Made by a program: the position numbers and the translations under genes. A DNA stretch of 64,000 bases, from positions 1-64,000 of the forward strand of contig VBEF01000039.1 in assembly GCA_005881275.1 (NCBI GenBank), in the 5' to 3' direction. The first letter of the stretch is position 1. Every line of letters starts with the position of its first letter. The notes beneath the pieces are model-generated. The model was not told the origin of the DNA. It searched no databases and was given only the letters and a program-made list of their open reading frames with translations. Positions 2,914 through 37,661 of the stretch are shown one piece after another. The stretch comes from Chloroflexota bacterium. GTDB taxonomy: Bacteria; Chloroflexota; Dormibacteria; Dormibacterales; Dormibacteraceae.

Positions 2914-3960
2914 GTGAGCGAGGCCGCGGAGCGGGGCGTCCGCTACAAAGGTCCTGACCTGAAGCGCCTCGGCCAGGCGATTCTCGAGGCGGTCGGCACG
3001 CCCGAAGACCTCGCGGCGATCGTTGCCGGGTCACTTGTCGACGCCAACCTCGCCGGCCATGACTCGCACGGCGTGATCAGGCTCACGTCGTACGTGGCCG
3101 GCGTTCGAAGCGGCCAGGTTCAGCCCGGAGCTCGCGCGGTGGTCGAGTCGCTCGGCGATGCCTGCGCGCGAGTCGACGGCGCCTGGGGATGGGGCCAGCC
3201 CGCCGCTCACATCGCGACGGACACCGCCTCGAAGCTCGCGCGCGCCAACGGGGTCGGGCTGGTCACCGTCGGCCGCTGCAACCACATCGGGCGATTGGGT
3301 GAATACATCGAGGACTTGAGCCGCGCGGGCCAGATAGGGCTCATGACTTGCAACTCCCCTCCGGCGGTCGCGCCCTACGGCGGGTACACGCGCCTCCTGG
3401 GCACGAATCCGATTGCGTGGGGCGCTCCGCGGTCACCGGGCAAACCCCCGATCGTCGTTGATTTCGCGACCGCCTCCATCGCCGAGGGGAAGCTGAGGAT
3501 CGCCCACGCCAACGGCTCGAAGGCGCCTCTCGGCGCGGTGGTGGACAAGAGTGGCCAACCGACCACCGACACCGCTGCTTTCTACGACGGAGGCGCGCTC
3601 ACCACGTTCGGCGGACACAAGGGATTCGGACTGAGCGTGATGGCCGAGCTGATGGCCGGGATGCTGTCAGGCACCGGCTTGTCCTCAGACCCTGATTACA
3701 GCAACGGCAACGGCACCATGCTGCTCGCGATCGACGTGGGCAGGTTCTTGCCGGCGAGCGACTTCATGGAGCAGGCGGACGCCTTGGAGGGCCGCCTCCA
3801 TGCGGCCCCAACCGCCGCGGGTTTCGACGCAATTCAGATGCCGGGCGAACCCGAATGGCGATCGCGTGCGGAGCGCACGTCGGAGGGAATTCCCGTCGCT
3901 GGCGCGACACTTCGCGCGATCAACGACCTCGCCCAGGAGCTTGGCCTGAGCCCGATCTGA
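2914..3960 (+). CDS. LDH2-family malate/L-lactate/ureidoglycolate-type dehydrogenase
   Basis: 348 residues, normal length for the Ldh2 (type-2 malate/lactate dehydrogenase) family of NAD(P)-dependent oxidoreductases. Visible signatures are the early DSHGVIRL segment (about residue 50), the cofactor-binding VGRCNHIGRLGEYIE, and GGHKGFGLSVMAELMAGMLSG (about 230). The GTG start begins 14 codons before the conserved KGPDLKRLGQAILEA helix. It converges on the lactonase gene with a 2-bp gap. Together with the neighbouring lactonase, aldolase and D-2-hydroxyacid dehydrogenase it fits a sugar-acid or hydroxyacid catabolic set, in which it would interconvert a 2-hydroxyacid and a 2-oxoacid. The exact substrate cannot be fixed from the sequence. 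Confidence 0.88.
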   Translation: MSEAAERGVRYKGPDLKRLGQAILEAVGTPEDLAAIVAGSLVDANLAGHDSHGVIRLTSYVAGVRSGQVQPGARAVVESLGDACARVDGAWGWGQPAAHIATDTASKLARANGVGLVTVGRCNHIGRLGEYIEDLSRAGQIGLMTCNSPPAVAPYGGYTRLLGTNPIAWGAPRSPGKPPIVVDFATASIAEGKLRIAHANGSKAPLGAVVDKSGQPTTDTAAFYDGGALTTFGGHKGFGLSVMAELMAGMLSGTGLSSDPDYSNGNGTMLLAIDVGRFLPASDFMEQADALEGRLHAAPTAAGFDAIQMPGEPEWRSRAERTSEGIPVAGATLRAINDLAQELGLSPI

Positions 3961-10478: not shown

Positions 10479-10766
10479 CTAGCCGTTGGTGTACCGGACG
10501 CCGTAGCCGCCCCGGGGGGCGTGGCACGAGATGTTGTCGAACGGGCAGCCGATGGAGCAGGCCCCGCACTCGATGCAGTTGCCGAAGCTCACCAGGTTCT
10601 TCTTCTGCTCCTCGTTCCACTCGTACACGCCGGCCGGGCAGAAATGGGTGCAGTACTTCCCCGTGCACTTCGACAGGCACACATTCTGGTTGACGATCTC
10701 GATGTGCGGCTTGCCGGTGTCCTCGTTGTACTTGACGGTGAACAGCTTGTCGGTCAACTTTTCCAT
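10479..10766 (-). CDS. FixX-like 4Fe-4S ferredoxin
   Basis: 95 residues, the same length as FixX. Cys-rich segments are CLSKCTGKYCTHFCPAGVY (about 31-49) and CIECGACSIGCP (about 64-75). The C terminus APRGGYGVRYTNG matches the FixX ending (PRG-x-x-GV-x-x). FixX normally accompanies the ETF-quinone oxidoreductase FixC and the electron-transfer flavoproteins FixAB, none of which is in the window. The ATG overlaps the stop codon of the M20 peptidase gene (TGATG), so translation is coupled. An upstream in-frame ATG adds 11 residues but lies inside the peptidase gene. An orphan FixX next to trxB is unusual; its electron partners are unknown. Confidence 0.85.
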   Translation of the reverse strand: MEKLTDKLFTVKYNEDTGKPHIEIVNQNVCLSKCTGKYCTHFCPAGVYEWNEEQKKNLVSFGNCIECGACSIGCPFDNISCHAPRGGYGVRYTNG

Positions 10767-12124
10767 CAGCTCGCTCCGAAACGCTCCCAGATCCGGCACA
10801 TGAGGCGCACCGTGTTGACGTAATCGGCGGCGCGGATGTTCTCGTTGGGCGCGTGGATCCGGTTGTCGGGGCGCCCCACTCCGACCGGAAGCACGGTGGG
10901 AATTTCAAGGTCTGAAACGACCGGGTGCATTGGTCCCGTGGCGGGCATGAACGGCCACAGCACCGGCTCGCCGTGCATCTCCCGGACGCATTCGATCACG
11001 CTCTTGGCGACCGCCGAGTTGGGATCGGACCGCGCGGGCTTTTCACCCTCGCCGGCCAGGATCTCGACTCTGTCGAAACCGTGCCGGTCCAGGTGCTTGC
11101 GAAGCAGCTCGCGGACCTCGTCCGGATCCTGGTTGGGAATGAGCCGGAAGTCGAGCTTGGCGGTCGCCTCTGCCGGCAGCACGGTTTTCGAGCCAGGGCC
11201 CTGGTAGCCGGTCGTGATCCCCGCGATGTTGCAGGTGGGCAGGAACAGCATCTGCTCGATCACCTGGTCGGGCTTGGGATCCCGGACCAGCTTGTCGAAG
11301 CCCACCAGCTTGCGGCGCTTCTCGATCTCGGGGTCGATGCCGGCCATCATGCGGCGATCCGCCTCAGTCGGCTGCACCACCTTGTCGTAGAAGCCCTCGA
11401 TCTTTATGTTCATGTCCTGGTCGCACAGGCTTCTCAAGGCGGCGACCATGTAGTGCGCCGCGGACGGATAGATCGACGCAAAGCCCGAGTGCTGGTCGAA
11501 GTCGAGCAGCTTGACGCGCAGGGTGATGTAGACCAGGCCGCGGCAGCCGAACTGCAGCGTCGCCCTGCCGGCGTCGTCGAAGGACGTGCCCGACTCCCAC
11601 AGGCACCCGTCCGCGCGCAGCTTGGCGGCGTGGTCGTGCGCGATCTTCTCGAAAGACCGGGAGCCGATCTCCTCCTCGCCCTCGATCAGAAAGCGAAGCG
11701 TGACCGGCACCTCGCCCAGCTGCTTCAGCGTCTCAAGCGCGTGGATGCGTGCCATGACGTCAGCTTTGTCGTCGGCAACGCCACGCGCAAAGATCCGGTC
11801 GTCCCGCTCGGCCGGCTCGAACGGCGGCGTGGTCCACAGGTCGATCGGGTCGACGGGCTGCACGTCGTAATGCTCGTAAAGCAGCAGCTTGCGCCGCCCC
11901 GCGCCCGGCACCTCGGCGTACAGCGCCGGCATGCCCCCCGCTTCGAGCGTCTCGACGCGATCTGTGAACTTCGCGAGCCGCTCGGCAAGCCAGTCGCGCG
12001 CCGGCTGGATGGCTTCACGACCGTGATTGGAGATGCTGGGGAACGAGCAGAGCTCTTTGAGCTCTCCGATGAACCGGCGGGAGTTCTTCTCGATGTACGC
12101 GTCCACCGCGCTGGTCGAGATCAC
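10766..12124 (-). CDS. M20-family metallopeptidase (dipeptidase/ArgE-DapE type)
   Basis: 452 residues from the GTG at 12124; an ATG at 12148 would add 8 residues and cannot be excluded. The di-zinc catalytic domain shows YEHYDVQP (metal His and catalytic Asp), GVADDKADVMAR (bridging Asp) and EGEEEIGS (catalytic Glu-Glu). The dimerisation/lid domain lies between about residues 190 and 330. The long form with ATLQFGCRGLVYITLRV resembles the dipeptidase group acting on short peptides in the cytosol. It leads the minus-strand group peptidase, fixX, trxB. The divergent YyaL gene begins 22 bp away, so both promoters must overlap the gene starts. Confidence 0.9.
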   Translation of the reverse strand: MISTSAVDAYIEKNSRRFIGELKELCSFPSISNHGREAIQPARDWLAERLAKFTDRVETLEAGGMPALYAEVPGAGRRKLLLYEHYDVQPVDPIDLWTTPPFEPAERDDRIFARGVADDKADVMARIHALETLKQLGEVPVTLRFLIEGEEEIGSRSFEKIAHDHAAKLRADGCLWESGTSFDDAGRATLQFGCRGLVYITLRVKLLDFDQHSGFASIYPSAAHYMVAALRSLCDQDMNIKIEGFYDKVVQPTEADRRMMAGIDPEIEKRRKLVGFDKLVRDPKPDQVIEQMLFLPTCNIAGITTGYQGPGSKTVLPAEATAKLDFRLIPNQDPDEVRELLRKHLDRHGFDRVEILAGEGEKPARSDPNSAVAKSVIECVREMHGEPVLWPFMPATGPMHPVVSDLEIPTVLPVGVGRPDNRIHAPNENIRAADYVNTVRLMCRIWERFGAS

Positions 12125-34626: not shown

Positions 34627-35166
34627 GATCGCGATCCCGATCGCGCCCTTCTCGAGCGGACCGCTGATGCGGTCGTAGTTGCGCCCGAGCAGATAACCGA
34701 CGAGGGCAAGCGCGGCGCACCACGGCAGGGCGCCGATGAGGGTGAGCGCCGAGAACTTCGCGAGGTCGATGCGCGCCAGGCCCGCCGGAAACGAGATGTA
34801 GGTTCGGATGACCGGTAGGACTCGCCCGATGAACACGGCAAGCAACCCCCAGCGGCGAAACCATCCGTCCGCCATCTCGAGGTGGTGGCGCCGGATGCCC
34901 ACGTAGCGGCCAGGACCGAGCAGCAGCGGCTCGCCGAATCGCGCCGCCAGAACGTAAGCGATAAGCGATCCGACAAGGTTCGCCAGGGCGCCCGCGACGA
35001 TCGCGGCGATCAGGCCTCCCTGCATGTGGCCGGTGGCCGCGAGCAGGCCCGCGGTGGGCATGATCACCTCGCTGGGCAAGGGCAGGCCGCAGCTCTCGCC
35101 GACCATGAGCACGAACACGCCGAGAAGGCCATAGCTCGCGACGAGATTGCTGAGGGCGGCGGTCAA
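34561..35166 (-). CDS. DedA-family membrane protein
   Basis: 201 residues from a TTG at 35166 that overlaps the stop of the preceding gene. Motifs of the DedA/VTT family are GESCGLPLPSEVIMPTAGLLAA, the segment around LIAYVLAARFGEP, and GRVLPVIRTYISFPAGLARI with the conserved Arg. About five hydrophobic segments, ending in VAIVVVVWYV and a basic tail. DedA proteins are membrane transporters or scramblases linked to undecaprenyl-phosphate recycling and envelope homeostasis. The 49 codons upstream in frame are a shadow of the neighbouring gene. The convergent overlap with the amine oxidase gene is real, as both proteins are conserved up to it. Confidence 0.9.
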   Translation of the reverse strand: MTAALSNLVASYGLLGVFVLMVGESCGLPLPSEVIMPTAGLLAATGHMQGGLIAAIVAGALANLVGSLIAYVLAARFGEPLLLGPGRYVGIRRHHLEMADGWFRRWGLLAVFIGRVLPVIRTYISFPAGLARIDLAKFSALTLIGALPWCAALALVGYLLGRNYDRISGPLEKGAIGIAILVAIVVVVWYVRGREPRSRKA

Positions 35167-35591
35167 ACGGTCTGAACCGCGGCTGCCTTCACCGCCCTGA
35201 ACGGCAGGGTTCGAGCCTGTTGATCGTCGATGAGGATCTCGAAGTTGTAGAAGCCCGGCCGGTTGATCGGGACGGTGGTGATATTGATGACGATGTTGGC
35301 CGACAGGTCCCATCCGTGTGGGTACTCGGTCGGAACCTGCCGCGCGGGCAGGTTCAGGACGATGGGCTGCGGGAGCACGGGCTTGCCGTCCTCGTCGCTG
35401 CAGTGGACCTCGACCTTGTGCGGTCGCTCAGTCTCGAGCCTCGTCGTCTGCAGTCGCAGCACTATGACTCCGCCAAATGGCGTTGGGAAGCTCTCGCGGA
35501 CGAGGGTGTCGAAGCCCGCGCCGAGGATGTAGACAAGGCCGTTTGGCGGCGCTTCGGCGGCGTTGGCGAGCAGAGCCCAATCGAGCCTCAT
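35163..35591 (-). CDS. DUF6941-like hypothetical protein
   Basis: 142 residues opening MRLDWALLANAAEAPPNGLVYILGAGFDTL, the pattern of the DUF6941 family. It is a predicted beta-sandwich without membrane or signal segments, ending FYNFEILIDDQQARTLPFRAV. The function of the family is unknown. It shares a 4-bp overlap with the DedA gene and is the last complete chromosomal gene before the tRNA-bounded insertion, whose left boundary is 99 bp upstream of its start. Confidence 0.75.
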   Translation of the reverse strand: MRLDWALLANAAEAPPNGLVYILGAGFDTLVRESFPTPFGGVIVLRLQTTRLETERPHKVEVHCSDEDGKPVLPQPIVLNLPARQVPTEYPHGWDLSANIVINITTVPINRPGFYNFEILIDDQQARTLPFRAVKAAAVQTV

Positions 35592-35690: not shown

Positions 35691-35733
35691 GTGGGCCCGG
35701 GTGGCCTCGATCCACCGACCAGCCGATTATGAG
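35691..35733. repeat. attL: orphan copy of the tRNA 3' half
   Basis: A 43-bp exact duplicate of 36944-36986. It spans discriminator A73, the acceptor 3' strand, the T arm, variable loop, anticodon 3' stem and the CAT anticodon loop. The flanking bases differ immediately on both sides, so the repeat ends are sharp. It marks the left junction of the insertion. Confidence 0.85.
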
Positions 35734-36205
35734 GCCAGCCTTCGGCCGTCTCAGGAAGTGTCAGGGAGTGTCAGGCGTACTCAGCCGTCGCGCTCGACGA
35801 CTCGGTGTGTGCCACAGAGTGTCACGGGGCGTCACGGCGTTGATGTCAAAACTGTTGTCAGCCGACGCCGACTAGAAATCGCGGCCGGAAAAACCTCACA
35901 AGAATTTACGGCGCGTCTCACATGTGGTCAGAACGTGTCACAGAGTGTCAGCGCGTGTCGGGCGTTTCTCGTCGTCTCTATTTCGACCCGTTGCCGTCGC
36001 GACCGACTATAGATACGGTGCGGGGCATGGTGGCGAGGATTACGCGTTCCGCGCTGATGTCTGCAGTCGAGGCCGGCCTCGGCCGGATTCGGCACGGCTG
36101 CGTGACGGCCTGGCACGGAACGCGTAACACCGTGCCTTCCAGGACGTTCGCTGAGGTTTCTCTAGGTGGCCATTGCGGCCACAGGCCGAATGTGAGATTC
36201 GCGCG
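35734..36205. other. Left non-coding arm of the element with phased and dispersed short repeats
   Basis: No convincing gene. TCAG occurs at exactly 10-bp steps (35751, 35761, 35771, 35781), three times as TCAGG within AAGTG/GAGTG contexts. GTCACGG recurs at 35821 and 35831. CACAGAGTGTCA occurs at 35813-35824 and 35939-35950. AAAACTGTTGTCAG at 35848-35861 has a 13-of-14 match on the right side at 36861-36874. An inverted repeat GGCACGG/CCGTGCC is at 36112-36136 and GTGGCC/GGCCAC at 36166-36182. These look like integrase arm-type sites plus control sites of a lost integrase operon. Confidence 0.5.
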
Positions 36206-36418
36206 ATGAGCGCGCGACACCGCGGCAACGGCGAAGGCACGATCCTGAAGCGCTCGGACGGGCGTTGGGCCGCTGCCATCGTCCTCGACGACTACAGCCG
36301 CAAGTGGATGAACGTAACGTCGCCCATAAGCCGAGGGCCTAGACGGGTATGCAGCGAGCCAACACGGACTCATAGGTCAGCTCGTTCCACGTCGGGTCCC
36401 ACGGTTCGAGTCCGTTGA
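36206..36418 (+). pseudogene. Tyrosine integrase, N-terminal fragment only
   Basis: 70 codons from ATG 36206. The first ~40 residues (RHRGNGEGTILKRSDGRWAAAI ...) match the N-terminal arm-binding domain that opens many actinobacterial phage and ICE integrases (RRGNGEGS-x-x-KR-x-DGRW). After about 36325 the similarity ends and the frame runs antisense into the Imm26-like gene. The core-binding and catalytic domains (R-H-R-Y) are missing. A deletion that joined the integrase to the cargo gene is the simplest explanation. Confidence 0.7.
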
Positions 36419-36851
36419 TAGCTCTGATGGCCCTCTGAAGTCGAATCGGCGCAACGCTGGTGGGGTTGGTTAGTTTCTCGAGCTCGCCGGGATTGGGGAG
36501 CCTGCGTCGAGCGTGGTCGAACGTCTCGATGAACCAGCGGTCTGCTGCTCCTACCGTGATGCGATAGGCCGGAAATGGCACTCGATCCAGCTCGGGTGCC
36601 AGATTGCCGACCAGAGGCCACTTGCCGTGCCAGATCAGGGCGTCCATGGTAGGTGCGACGAGGGCGATCTCGTCGGCGACGATGTTCCTAATGTCCGGCT
36701 GGGCGTCCAGCGGCCAAGCTCGGCGAAAGATGACGACATACAGAGGGCCAGGGCCAGAGTTAACCGCCACAACTTGGCCGTGACCGACTTGGCCCGGATG
36801 CAATGGGATTTGAAAGACGTCTCCTATTCGCGCCTTCGGTCGTTTGACCAC
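36339..36851 (-). CDS. Imm26-like immunity protein
   Basis: 170 residues from the GTG at 36851, which has GGAGG 4 bp upstream. The N-terminal KARIGDVFQIPLHPGQVGHGQVVAV resembles the Imm26 family (GDVF-x-IPL ... G-x-G-x-V) of immunity proteins for polymorphic or contact-dependent toxins. The C-terminal part (RWFIETFDHARRRLPNPGELEKL onward) is helical and charged. An open frame extends upstream into the tRNA but would add a non-homologous leader. No cognate toxin is near, so it is an orphan immunity gene carried as cargo by the element. The family call rests on motif recognition. Confidence 0.65.
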   Translation of the reverse strand: MVKRPKARIGDVFQIPLHPGQVGHGQVVAVNSGPGPLYVVIFRRAWPLDAQPDIRNIVADEIALVAPTMDALIWHGKWPLVGNLAPELDRVPFPAYRITVGAADRWFIETFDHARRRLPNPGELEKLTNPTSVAPIRLQRAIRAINGLEPWDPTWNELTYESVLARCIPV

Positions 36852-36860
36852 GGATCCTCC

Positions 36861-36904
36861 AAAACTGTCGTCAGAATTGTTGTCAGACCGGCGGCAGCCG
36901 CCGG
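36861..36904. repeat. Right-arm repeats and palindrome of the element
   Basis: ACTGTCGTCAG (36864-36874) and ATTGTTGTCAG (36876-36886) repeat 12 bp apart and match ACTGTTGTCAG of the left arm. Next comes a palindrome, CCGGCGGC, one A, GCCGCCGG (36888-36904). The segment lies between the Imm26-like start and the tRNA, so it may also hold the promoter or operator of that gene. Confidence 0.45.
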
Positions 36905-36943
36905 CAATCCCACCAAGGAGGCCCGATATGAACTCGAAAATGA

Positions 36944-36986
36944 GTGGGCCCGGGTGGCCTCGATCCACCGACCAGCCGATTATGAG
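36944..36986. repeat. attR: tRNA 3' half, right junction of the element
   Basis: The 43-bp sequence duplicated at 35691-35733. Here it is part of the functional tRNA gene, so the element supplied the sequence that restored the tRNA on integration. Confidence 0.85.
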
Positions 36987-37018
36987 TCGGCCGCTCTAAC
37001 CAACTGAGCTACGGGCCC
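36945..37018 (-). tRNA. tRNA with CAT anticodon (Ile2 or elongator Met)
   Basis: 74 nt folding as a complete cloverleaf: acceptor GGGCCCG/CGGGCCC, D stem GCTC/GAGC, anticodon stem GCCGA/TCGGC with loop CTCATAA, T stem GGTGG/CCACC and discriminator A. CCA is not encoded. The acceptor resembles bacterial tRNA-Ile genes, so an Ile2 tRNA needing lysidine at C34 is slightly favoured over elongator Met. The paired G1-C72 argues against the initiator. The T loop reads ATCGAGG, with A where T54 is almost universal, which is unusual. Confidence 0.88.
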
Positions 37019-37142: not shown

Positions 37143-37661
37143 ATGCTTGCGTTAGGACTCTTGATTCTTCGGGTAGCGATCGGCCTGACCGTCGCGGCCC
37201 ATGGAGCGCAGAAGCTCTTCGGATGGTGGGAAGGCCCCGGCATGAAGGGCTGGACCGGCGCGATGAACCACATGCGCATCCGGCCGGCGTCACAGTGGGC
37301 GTGGATGTCGGCCCTCGCGGAATTCGCAGGCGGGCTCGGCCTGGCGCTGGGATTCCTGACCCCCCTCCCCAGCCTCGCCATCGCCGGTTCGATGCTGGTC
37401 GCGATCGCCCTTGTGCACTGGCCTCACGGCTTCTTCAGCACGAAAGGCGGCCTCGAGTTCAACCTCGCCATCCTGGCCGCGGTGGCGGCGATTGCGCTCG
37501 CCGGCCCCGGCGCCTATTCACTGGACGCGGTGCTGGGCATCCGCTTTCCCGAACCCATCACATTGGTGGTCGGCACGATCCTGCTGCTCATCGGGGTGGC
37601 TGTGGCGCTCGGTACTCGCGCCCCCGAGCAAGCCGCTGAGAAGAGGCCTCAGGTCACCTAA
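37143..37661 (+). CDS. DoxX-family membrane protein
   Basis: 172 residues. The ATG at 37143 has GGAGGT 11 bp upstream. Four membrane helices are visible (LGLLILRVAIGLTVAAHGAQKL; FAGGLGLALGFLTPLPSLAIAGSMLVAIALV; LAILAAVAAIALAGPGAYSL; ITLVVGTILLLIGVAVALG). The first ends with the family HGAQKLFGWW motif. DoxX proteins are associated with thiosulfate:quinone oxidoreductase and with membrane redox complexes, but most members have no assigned role. The gene follows the tRNA and converges with the MprF-like gene, overlapping its end by 4 bp. Confidence 0.9.
   Translation: MLALGLLILRVAIGLTVAAHGAQKLFGWWEGPGMKGWTGAMNHMRIRPASQWAWMSALAEFAGGLGLALGFLTPLPSLAIAGSMLVAIALVHWPHGFFSTKGGLEFNLAILAAVAAIALAGPGAYSLDAVLGIRFPEPITLVVGTILLLIGVAVALGTRAPEQAAEKRPQVT

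Follow-up and report, generated by a model that had tools for sequence, protein, structure and literature searches.

A probable CIME-like mini-element at a Chloroflexota tRNA gene, with a likely orphan immunity gene as its only cargo

Introduction

How an immunity-type gene comes to stand alone between two copies of a tRNA gene's 3′ part is the question raised by a 1.25-kb segment in a soil Chloroflexota MAG of 2.94 Mb (86% complete; here G000). An initial annotation had read this segment as a collapsed tRNA-integrated element with only an Imm26-like immunity gene left, explained either by decay around a selected gene or as a mini-cassette moved in trans by a related integrase. We followed up this reading in the 64,000-nt window, which is the whole stretch of DNA that was analysed and to which coordinates without a locus label refer, and in related genomes, which carry the other G numbers. 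The genomes used here from this group are all drafts, and some of their contigs break at these repeats.

Results

Integration at a CAU tRNA gene

The two att copies (Table 1) form a perfect direct repeat (43/43 bp, spacing 1253) that brackets the segment, as the initial annotation had described. Along the tRNA, the repeat spans from the first base of the anticodon loop to the 3′ end, and chance falls far short of explaining so exact a register with the tRNA 3′ end. The interval from the anticodon loop to the 3′ end is a usual one for insertion by tyrosine integrases. The end repeats consist of a regenerated tRNA gene and a displaced 3′ fragment, the pair of features that marks island ends as outlined for Islander (PMC4383910). 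ARAGORN assigns Met to this tRNA, and two other CAU tRNAs of G008, when compared with it, exclude an initiator and leave elongator Met and Ile2 as candidate types. A specific assignment to tRNA-Ile2 was considered and dropped, as another CAU tRNA of G008 looks more Ile2-like.

The locus between the DUF6941 gene and the tRNA is variable among 17 genomes of the genus. In G004, only 35 bp separate the two, which represents the empty site that the initial annotation had proposed to look for, and this empty site in a near relative together with the register of the repeat bears out its proposal of site-specific insertion at the tRNA 3′ end. In G007 the interval is 496 bp long and holds another small gene. 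G008 carries the same Imm26 gene as the host (91% amino acid identity) with the right end adjoining the tRNA, retains only an 11-base att-core remnant (GTGGGCCCGG) on the left side, and has a second cassette with a different gene preceding the Imm26 cassette. Many genus genomes, as well as other genera, have an amidohydrolase gene between DUF6941 and the tRNA, and this gene is missing at the site in G000, G004, G007 and G008. A much larger occupant of the tRNA site than the host element is found in G001:C45 (L035), where ~12.6 kb from the flanking gene to the tRNA encode efflux-type transporters together with a two-component system.

A tandem duplication of the tRNA gene, its copies separated by unrelated sequence, which the initial annotation had named alongside a general lack of empty sites as grounds for abandoning insertion, would account for one repeat copy being part of a tRNA gene. 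However, the distal copy begins at the anticodon loop and has no 5′ half, the ends of the element are conserved between genera, and an empty site exists. On this anatomy and the empty site we reject the duplication, whose probability is practically nil.

Anatomy of the element

From left to right, the element consists of attL, the left end, an integrase fragment, a junction, the Imm26 gene, the right end and the tRNA (Table 1). The left end is rich in TGTCA repeats (35759, 35769, 35820, 35844, 35856, 35936 and 35946), which occur seven times on the plus strand in 35734-36000 versus a shuffle mean of 0.7. The motif CAAAACTGTTGTCAG in the left end is repeated by the right-end motif CAAAACTGTCGTCAGAATTGTTGTCAG, and its presence at both ends suggests that these are integrase arm sites. 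Residues 1-36 of the integrase fragment match a full 378-aa tyrosine integrase (72%, E 1e-11), on which the Pfam domain Phage_integrase is recognised, confirming that the fragment is the N-terminus of an integrase as initially proposed. The host element holds these 36 codons of the integrase, the complete gene being found in G022:C20. Codon 36 is joined ~25 bp behind the Imm26 stop, and the frame of the fragment continues past this point into the region downstream of Imm26.

Table 1. Features of the element and its flanks in the 64,000-nt window.
Feature	Coordinates	Strand	Evidence
Host gene at left flank, DUF6941	35163..35591	-	Profile; at the site in most genus relatives
Distal att copy (attL), displaced tRNA 3′ part	35691..35733	+	Exact repeat
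Left end (integrase upstream region), 472 bp	35734..36205	+	Homology to ends in two other genera
Putative arm-type site CAAAACTGTTGTCAG	35847..35861	+	Recurs at right end
Integrase N-terminal fragment, 36 codons	36206..36313	+	Homology to full tyrosine integrase
Junction ACGTAACGT, integrase fragment / Imm26 module	36308..36316		G008 homology begins here
Imm26-family gene, 170 aa, GTG start	36339..36851	-	PF15428
Conserved right end	36859..36943	+	Common to relatives' elements
Putative arm-type sites CAAAACTGTCGTCAGAATTGTTGTCAG, right end	36860..36886	+	Kept in seven right ends with different cargo
att copy on tRNA side (attR)	36944..36986	+	Exact repeat, tRNA overlap
tRNA gene, CAU anticodon (CAT in DNA)	36944..37018	-	Rfam tRNA, 65.6 bits
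Host gene at right flank, DoxX	37143..37661	+	Profile and relatives

Two further features of this region were observed. Upstream of the integrase, a 28-nt stretch (36112-36141) contains the inverted repeat GGCACGG...CCGTGCC, which is possibly an operator; the same 28 nt are identical in G001:C18 and near-identical in G019:C3 (L054 3684-3711; L055 4616-4651), in both cases away from an integrase of the element type. In addition, the Imm26 module begins at a shared ACGTWACGT point in G000 and G008 (36308-36325; L025 ~3387-3415), and this start point lies behind integrase codon 36 in G000 and behind the att-core remnant in G008. The 16 nt at the start of the module are exact reverse complements between the two genomes, an inverted match that was set aside as evidence given that its near-palindromic core explains part of it.

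Related elements in other genera

The left end and first integrase codons of the host element are 75% identical to G019:C28 and 69% to G022:C20, both from other genera. G022:C20 holds a complete form, 2957 bp long, whose 43-bp att copies are identical; its left end is followed by a 378-aa integrase with Phage_integrase and SAM-like domains, then by one HEAT-repeat gene and the right end. The initial annotation had suggested searching for a full-length island, and an intact relative does exist, although at 2.96 kb it holds only the integrase and one cargo gene. Among the family members at the tRNA site, transfer genes are not seen and Imm26 has no linked toxin; with the one intact autonomous relative found being only ~3 kb, a collapse from a large island with toxin or transfer genes is not borne out. 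Directly beside the G022:C20 element (L053 269-1294) lie a SocA/Panacea-domain gene and then a PemK-type gene, a toxin-antitoxin pair.

The right end is kept in G008, G001:C116, G019 (two copies), G022 (two contigs) and G040, with cargo that is mostly unrelated. This cargo ranges from Imm26 through a DUF2199 protein (G011, with a partial right end) and a PIN domain protein (G019) to lipoprotein-like proteins. By inspection, the first cargo gene of the integrase-less forms lies in the tRNA direction and reads away from the tRNA. The integrase is truncated at about residue 240, near the cargo stop, in G001:C116, has an internal deletion in G022:C22 and is split into two frames in G019; these breakages and that at codon 36 in the host are independent. 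In G019, the att copies are unequal in the T-arm, the distal copy having 95% identity to the version that other genera carry natively and the tRNA-side copy matching the form of the host-window element. This difference fits a crossover on the side of the anticodon, the new 3′ part of the tRNA coming from the element. A 0.7-kb interval in G035 (L185 2187-2962), which runs from an att-like copy to the tRNA, encodes one small lipoprotein-like protein and has no recognisable arms or integrase, is possibly an even smaller element.

No match to the right-end motif was found in viral contigs, and the phage relatives of the integrase were all below 60% identity, the best among the matches listed being ~36%. 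The host element is one member of a family, not named before, of very small single-cargo elements that occupy the same site, and a limited literature search returned no report of this Chloroflexota element family.

The Imm26 cargo gene

A profile search, which the initial annotation had recommended for its Imm26-like protein, gave a match to PF15428 at 40.1 bits versus a curated cut-off of 23.3 (E 4.8e-10), and the GTG start is preceded by GGAGG at 36856-36860. The dN/dS between the G000 and G008 genes is 0.20, which indicates purifying selection on Imm26. Imm26 was defined as an immunity family tied to Tox-URI1 and to polyimmunity loci (PMC3482391). Among distant homologues of the host protein (L189/L188), one in a gammaproteobacterial MAG starts directly behind an RHS-repeat protein and one in a Uliginosibacterium MAG comes after an Imm70 gene, placing these toxin-linked homologues behind an RHS-repeat protein or within a polyimmunity locus. 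The host protein shares with these distant homologues a C-terminal part that lies outside the Pfam Imm26 model. Because the distant homologues adjoin an RHS-repeat protein or a polyimmunity locus, and because no toxin lies within the host element, the best inference is that the host Imm26 is an orphan immunity gene. It probably guards against a polymorphic toxin of competitors. Orphan immunity genes are a known type of gene, and their protective function has been demonstrated in rAID systems of Bacteroidales (PMC12247911). PADLOC returned no match for Imm26 and only a weak HEAT-type match for one other cargo gene, and no convincing relative of the Imm26 profile was found among solved structures.

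Probable horizontal movement of the cargo

The dS of Imm26 between G000 and G008 is 0.24 [0.14-0.34], while five flanking genes (DUF6941, DedA, DoxX and two more) have dS of 0.84-1.08, values near 1 being approximate. Along the syntenic contig, genes in a credible frame have dS mostly of 0.55-1.03, with the exception of a short conserved ferredoxin-like gene (10482-10865) whose dS of 0.25 is as low as that of Imm26. ORFs with very low dS but dN > dS were judged to be in the wrong frame and left out of this comparison, and the low-dS ORF at 11544-11864 was left out on codon-position GC. G004 and G007 are nearer to G000 (dS mostly ~0.6), and both are without Imm26. The GC3 of Imm26 is 0.69 versus 0.80-0.87 in most other genes of the window, and an Imm26 gene is rare in the class, occurring in only 3 of 110 genomes. 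From these comparisons, Imm26 appears to have moved between species. A weaker and less clear case for movement is the larger cargo common to G001 and G022, with a dS of 0.70 versus 1.31 for DoxX.

Homologous recombination across the locus could also have brought Imm26 to G000 and G008 with no integrase involved, as the tRNA and the locus are common to both genomes and could serve as anchors. However, both flanks are highly divergent, the similarity ends at the tRNA, and the left end in G000 matches that of other genera and not G008. With flanks this divergent and a left end unlike that of G008, we reject this explanation as very improbable.

Discussion

We consider it likely that the 1.25-kb segment is a CIME-like, non-autonomous, att-flanked mini-element that arose from tyrosine integrase insertion at a CAU tRNA gene and whose sole gene is an orphan immunity gene. 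In this mechanism, a tyrosine integrase would insert a small element at the part of the tRNA gene between the anticodon loop and the 3′ end, with the element bringing a new tRNA 3′ half and the old half being displaced to 35691-35733. The ancestor would have been an element that encoded its own integrase and carried Imm26, a gene of origin outside the species. A deletion would then have removed most of the integrase gene but spared both ends, the putative arm sites and the att cores. The deleted element would be movable solely by an integrase from elsewhere, and we infer that any such mobility, past or present, would involve an integrase acting in trans or an adjacent element in cis.

Two rival accounts of the lost integrase were weighed. 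In the first, an autonomous element with integrase and Imm26 inserted and the integrase was lost in place, leaving a dead remnant in which Imm26 is under selection and the ends are as yet uneroded. This account, to which we would give a little under an even chance, is favored by the common occurrence of broken integrases in the family and by the erosion of distal ends elsewhere, for example to GTGGGCCCGG in G008. It is also favored by the host genome itself, as no other integrase of the element type is detectable in the 86% complete MAG and no helper was therefore seen. Against it, the host element has identical att copies and two intact ends, and in both G000 and G008 the cargo, which moved after the species split, has the same boundary and no integrase beside it. 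In the second account, which likewise stops just short of being an even prospect, full-length relatives supply the integrases that mobilise single-gene elements which have intact ends but no integrase of their own. Members with no integrase or a broken one predominate (G000, G008, G040, G011, G001 and G022:C22), the ends are conserved while the cargo differs, and the cargo dS lies far below that of the flanks in G000/G008 and less clearly so in G001/G022. This account is weakened by the helper not being seen in G000, by no identical complete integrase-less element being common to any two genomes, and by the absence of transfer genes, so that the step from cell to cell would have to occur via phage, conjugation or transformation.

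The boundary shared by G000 and G008 bears on this choice. Because the two genomes have this boundary in common and the gene moved after the species split, the moving form was perhaps integrase-less, and the evidence leans towards a moving form that had already lost its integrase. As a counterpoint, the Imm26 copy in G008 is without a left end, and with that end lost, the common boundary falls short of proof that an integrase-less form moved. Mobilisation of the host element in trans is plausible on this sequence evidence. The purifying selection on the retained Imm26-type gene and the cargo's independent mobility both agree with the initial annotation; between its two alternatives, decay in place and movement in trans, we lean towards a non-autonomous but historically mobile element.

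The host element is overall an unusually small instance of an already known element type. A CIME is a cis-mobilizable element that has lost its integration and transfer genes and kept attL and attR (PMC5704250), and the host element likewise has attL and attR without integration or transfer genes, at a hotspot with tandem accretion in relatives. Unlike CIMEs, it measures 1.25 kb with a single cargo gene, and its autonomous relative of ~3 kb has no transfer genes and is not an ICE or IME, so that the term CIME-like is as far as the comparison goes. Within the Chloroflexota, the ssrA islands of Dehalococcoides are tandem and bounded by RNA-gene 3′-end repeats, and 15 of them, which have no integration module, were put forward as candidate cis-mobilizable elements (PMC3146451). 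The host element resembles these islands in phylum, in tandem arrangement among its relatives, in RNA-gene 3′-end repeats and in integrase-less members, whereas the Dehalococcoides islands are large and have a serine recombinase, a tmRNA target and reductive dehalogenase cargo. rAID (recombinase-associated acquired interbacterial defence) systems also combine a tyrosine recombinase with toxin-free orphan immunity genes (PMC12247911), but are multi-gene, co-oriented arrays in Bacteroidales with their recombinase, in contrast to the one gene, broken integrase and tRNA att found here. Going by their published description, tycheposons are similarly tRNA-bounded, with a tyrosine recombinase and variable cargo, and differ in their size of 4-200 kb (PMC10872708). 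CALIN and integron cassettes are integrase-less cargo units thought to rely on an integrase in trans (PMC11389934), though these form attC arrays, whereas the host element sits at a tRNA between tRNA-derived att copies.

It is tempting to speculate, though we regard it as unlikely, that the CAU tRNA in this Chloroflexota family is the landing site of a single-gene cassette system in which integrase-less units whose ends are conserved are mobilised in trans by the integrase of a rare full-length member and carry conflict genes. Such cargo would be orphan immunity, PIN-domain and similar conflict genes, in an integron-like sampling of competitor-defence genes. Given that the cassettes would lie directly behind the tRNA and mostly point along its transcription direction, they may be expressed by read-through from the tRNA promoter.

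This locus implies that a toxin-free immunity gene can spread among soil bacteria when the element that carries it hardly exceeds the gene in size. A further outcome is a compact, defined integrase/att system from an uncultured group of Chloroflexota, with an intact integrase, both ends and an empty site, which provides a direct test bed for the trans mobilisation of integrase-less islands.
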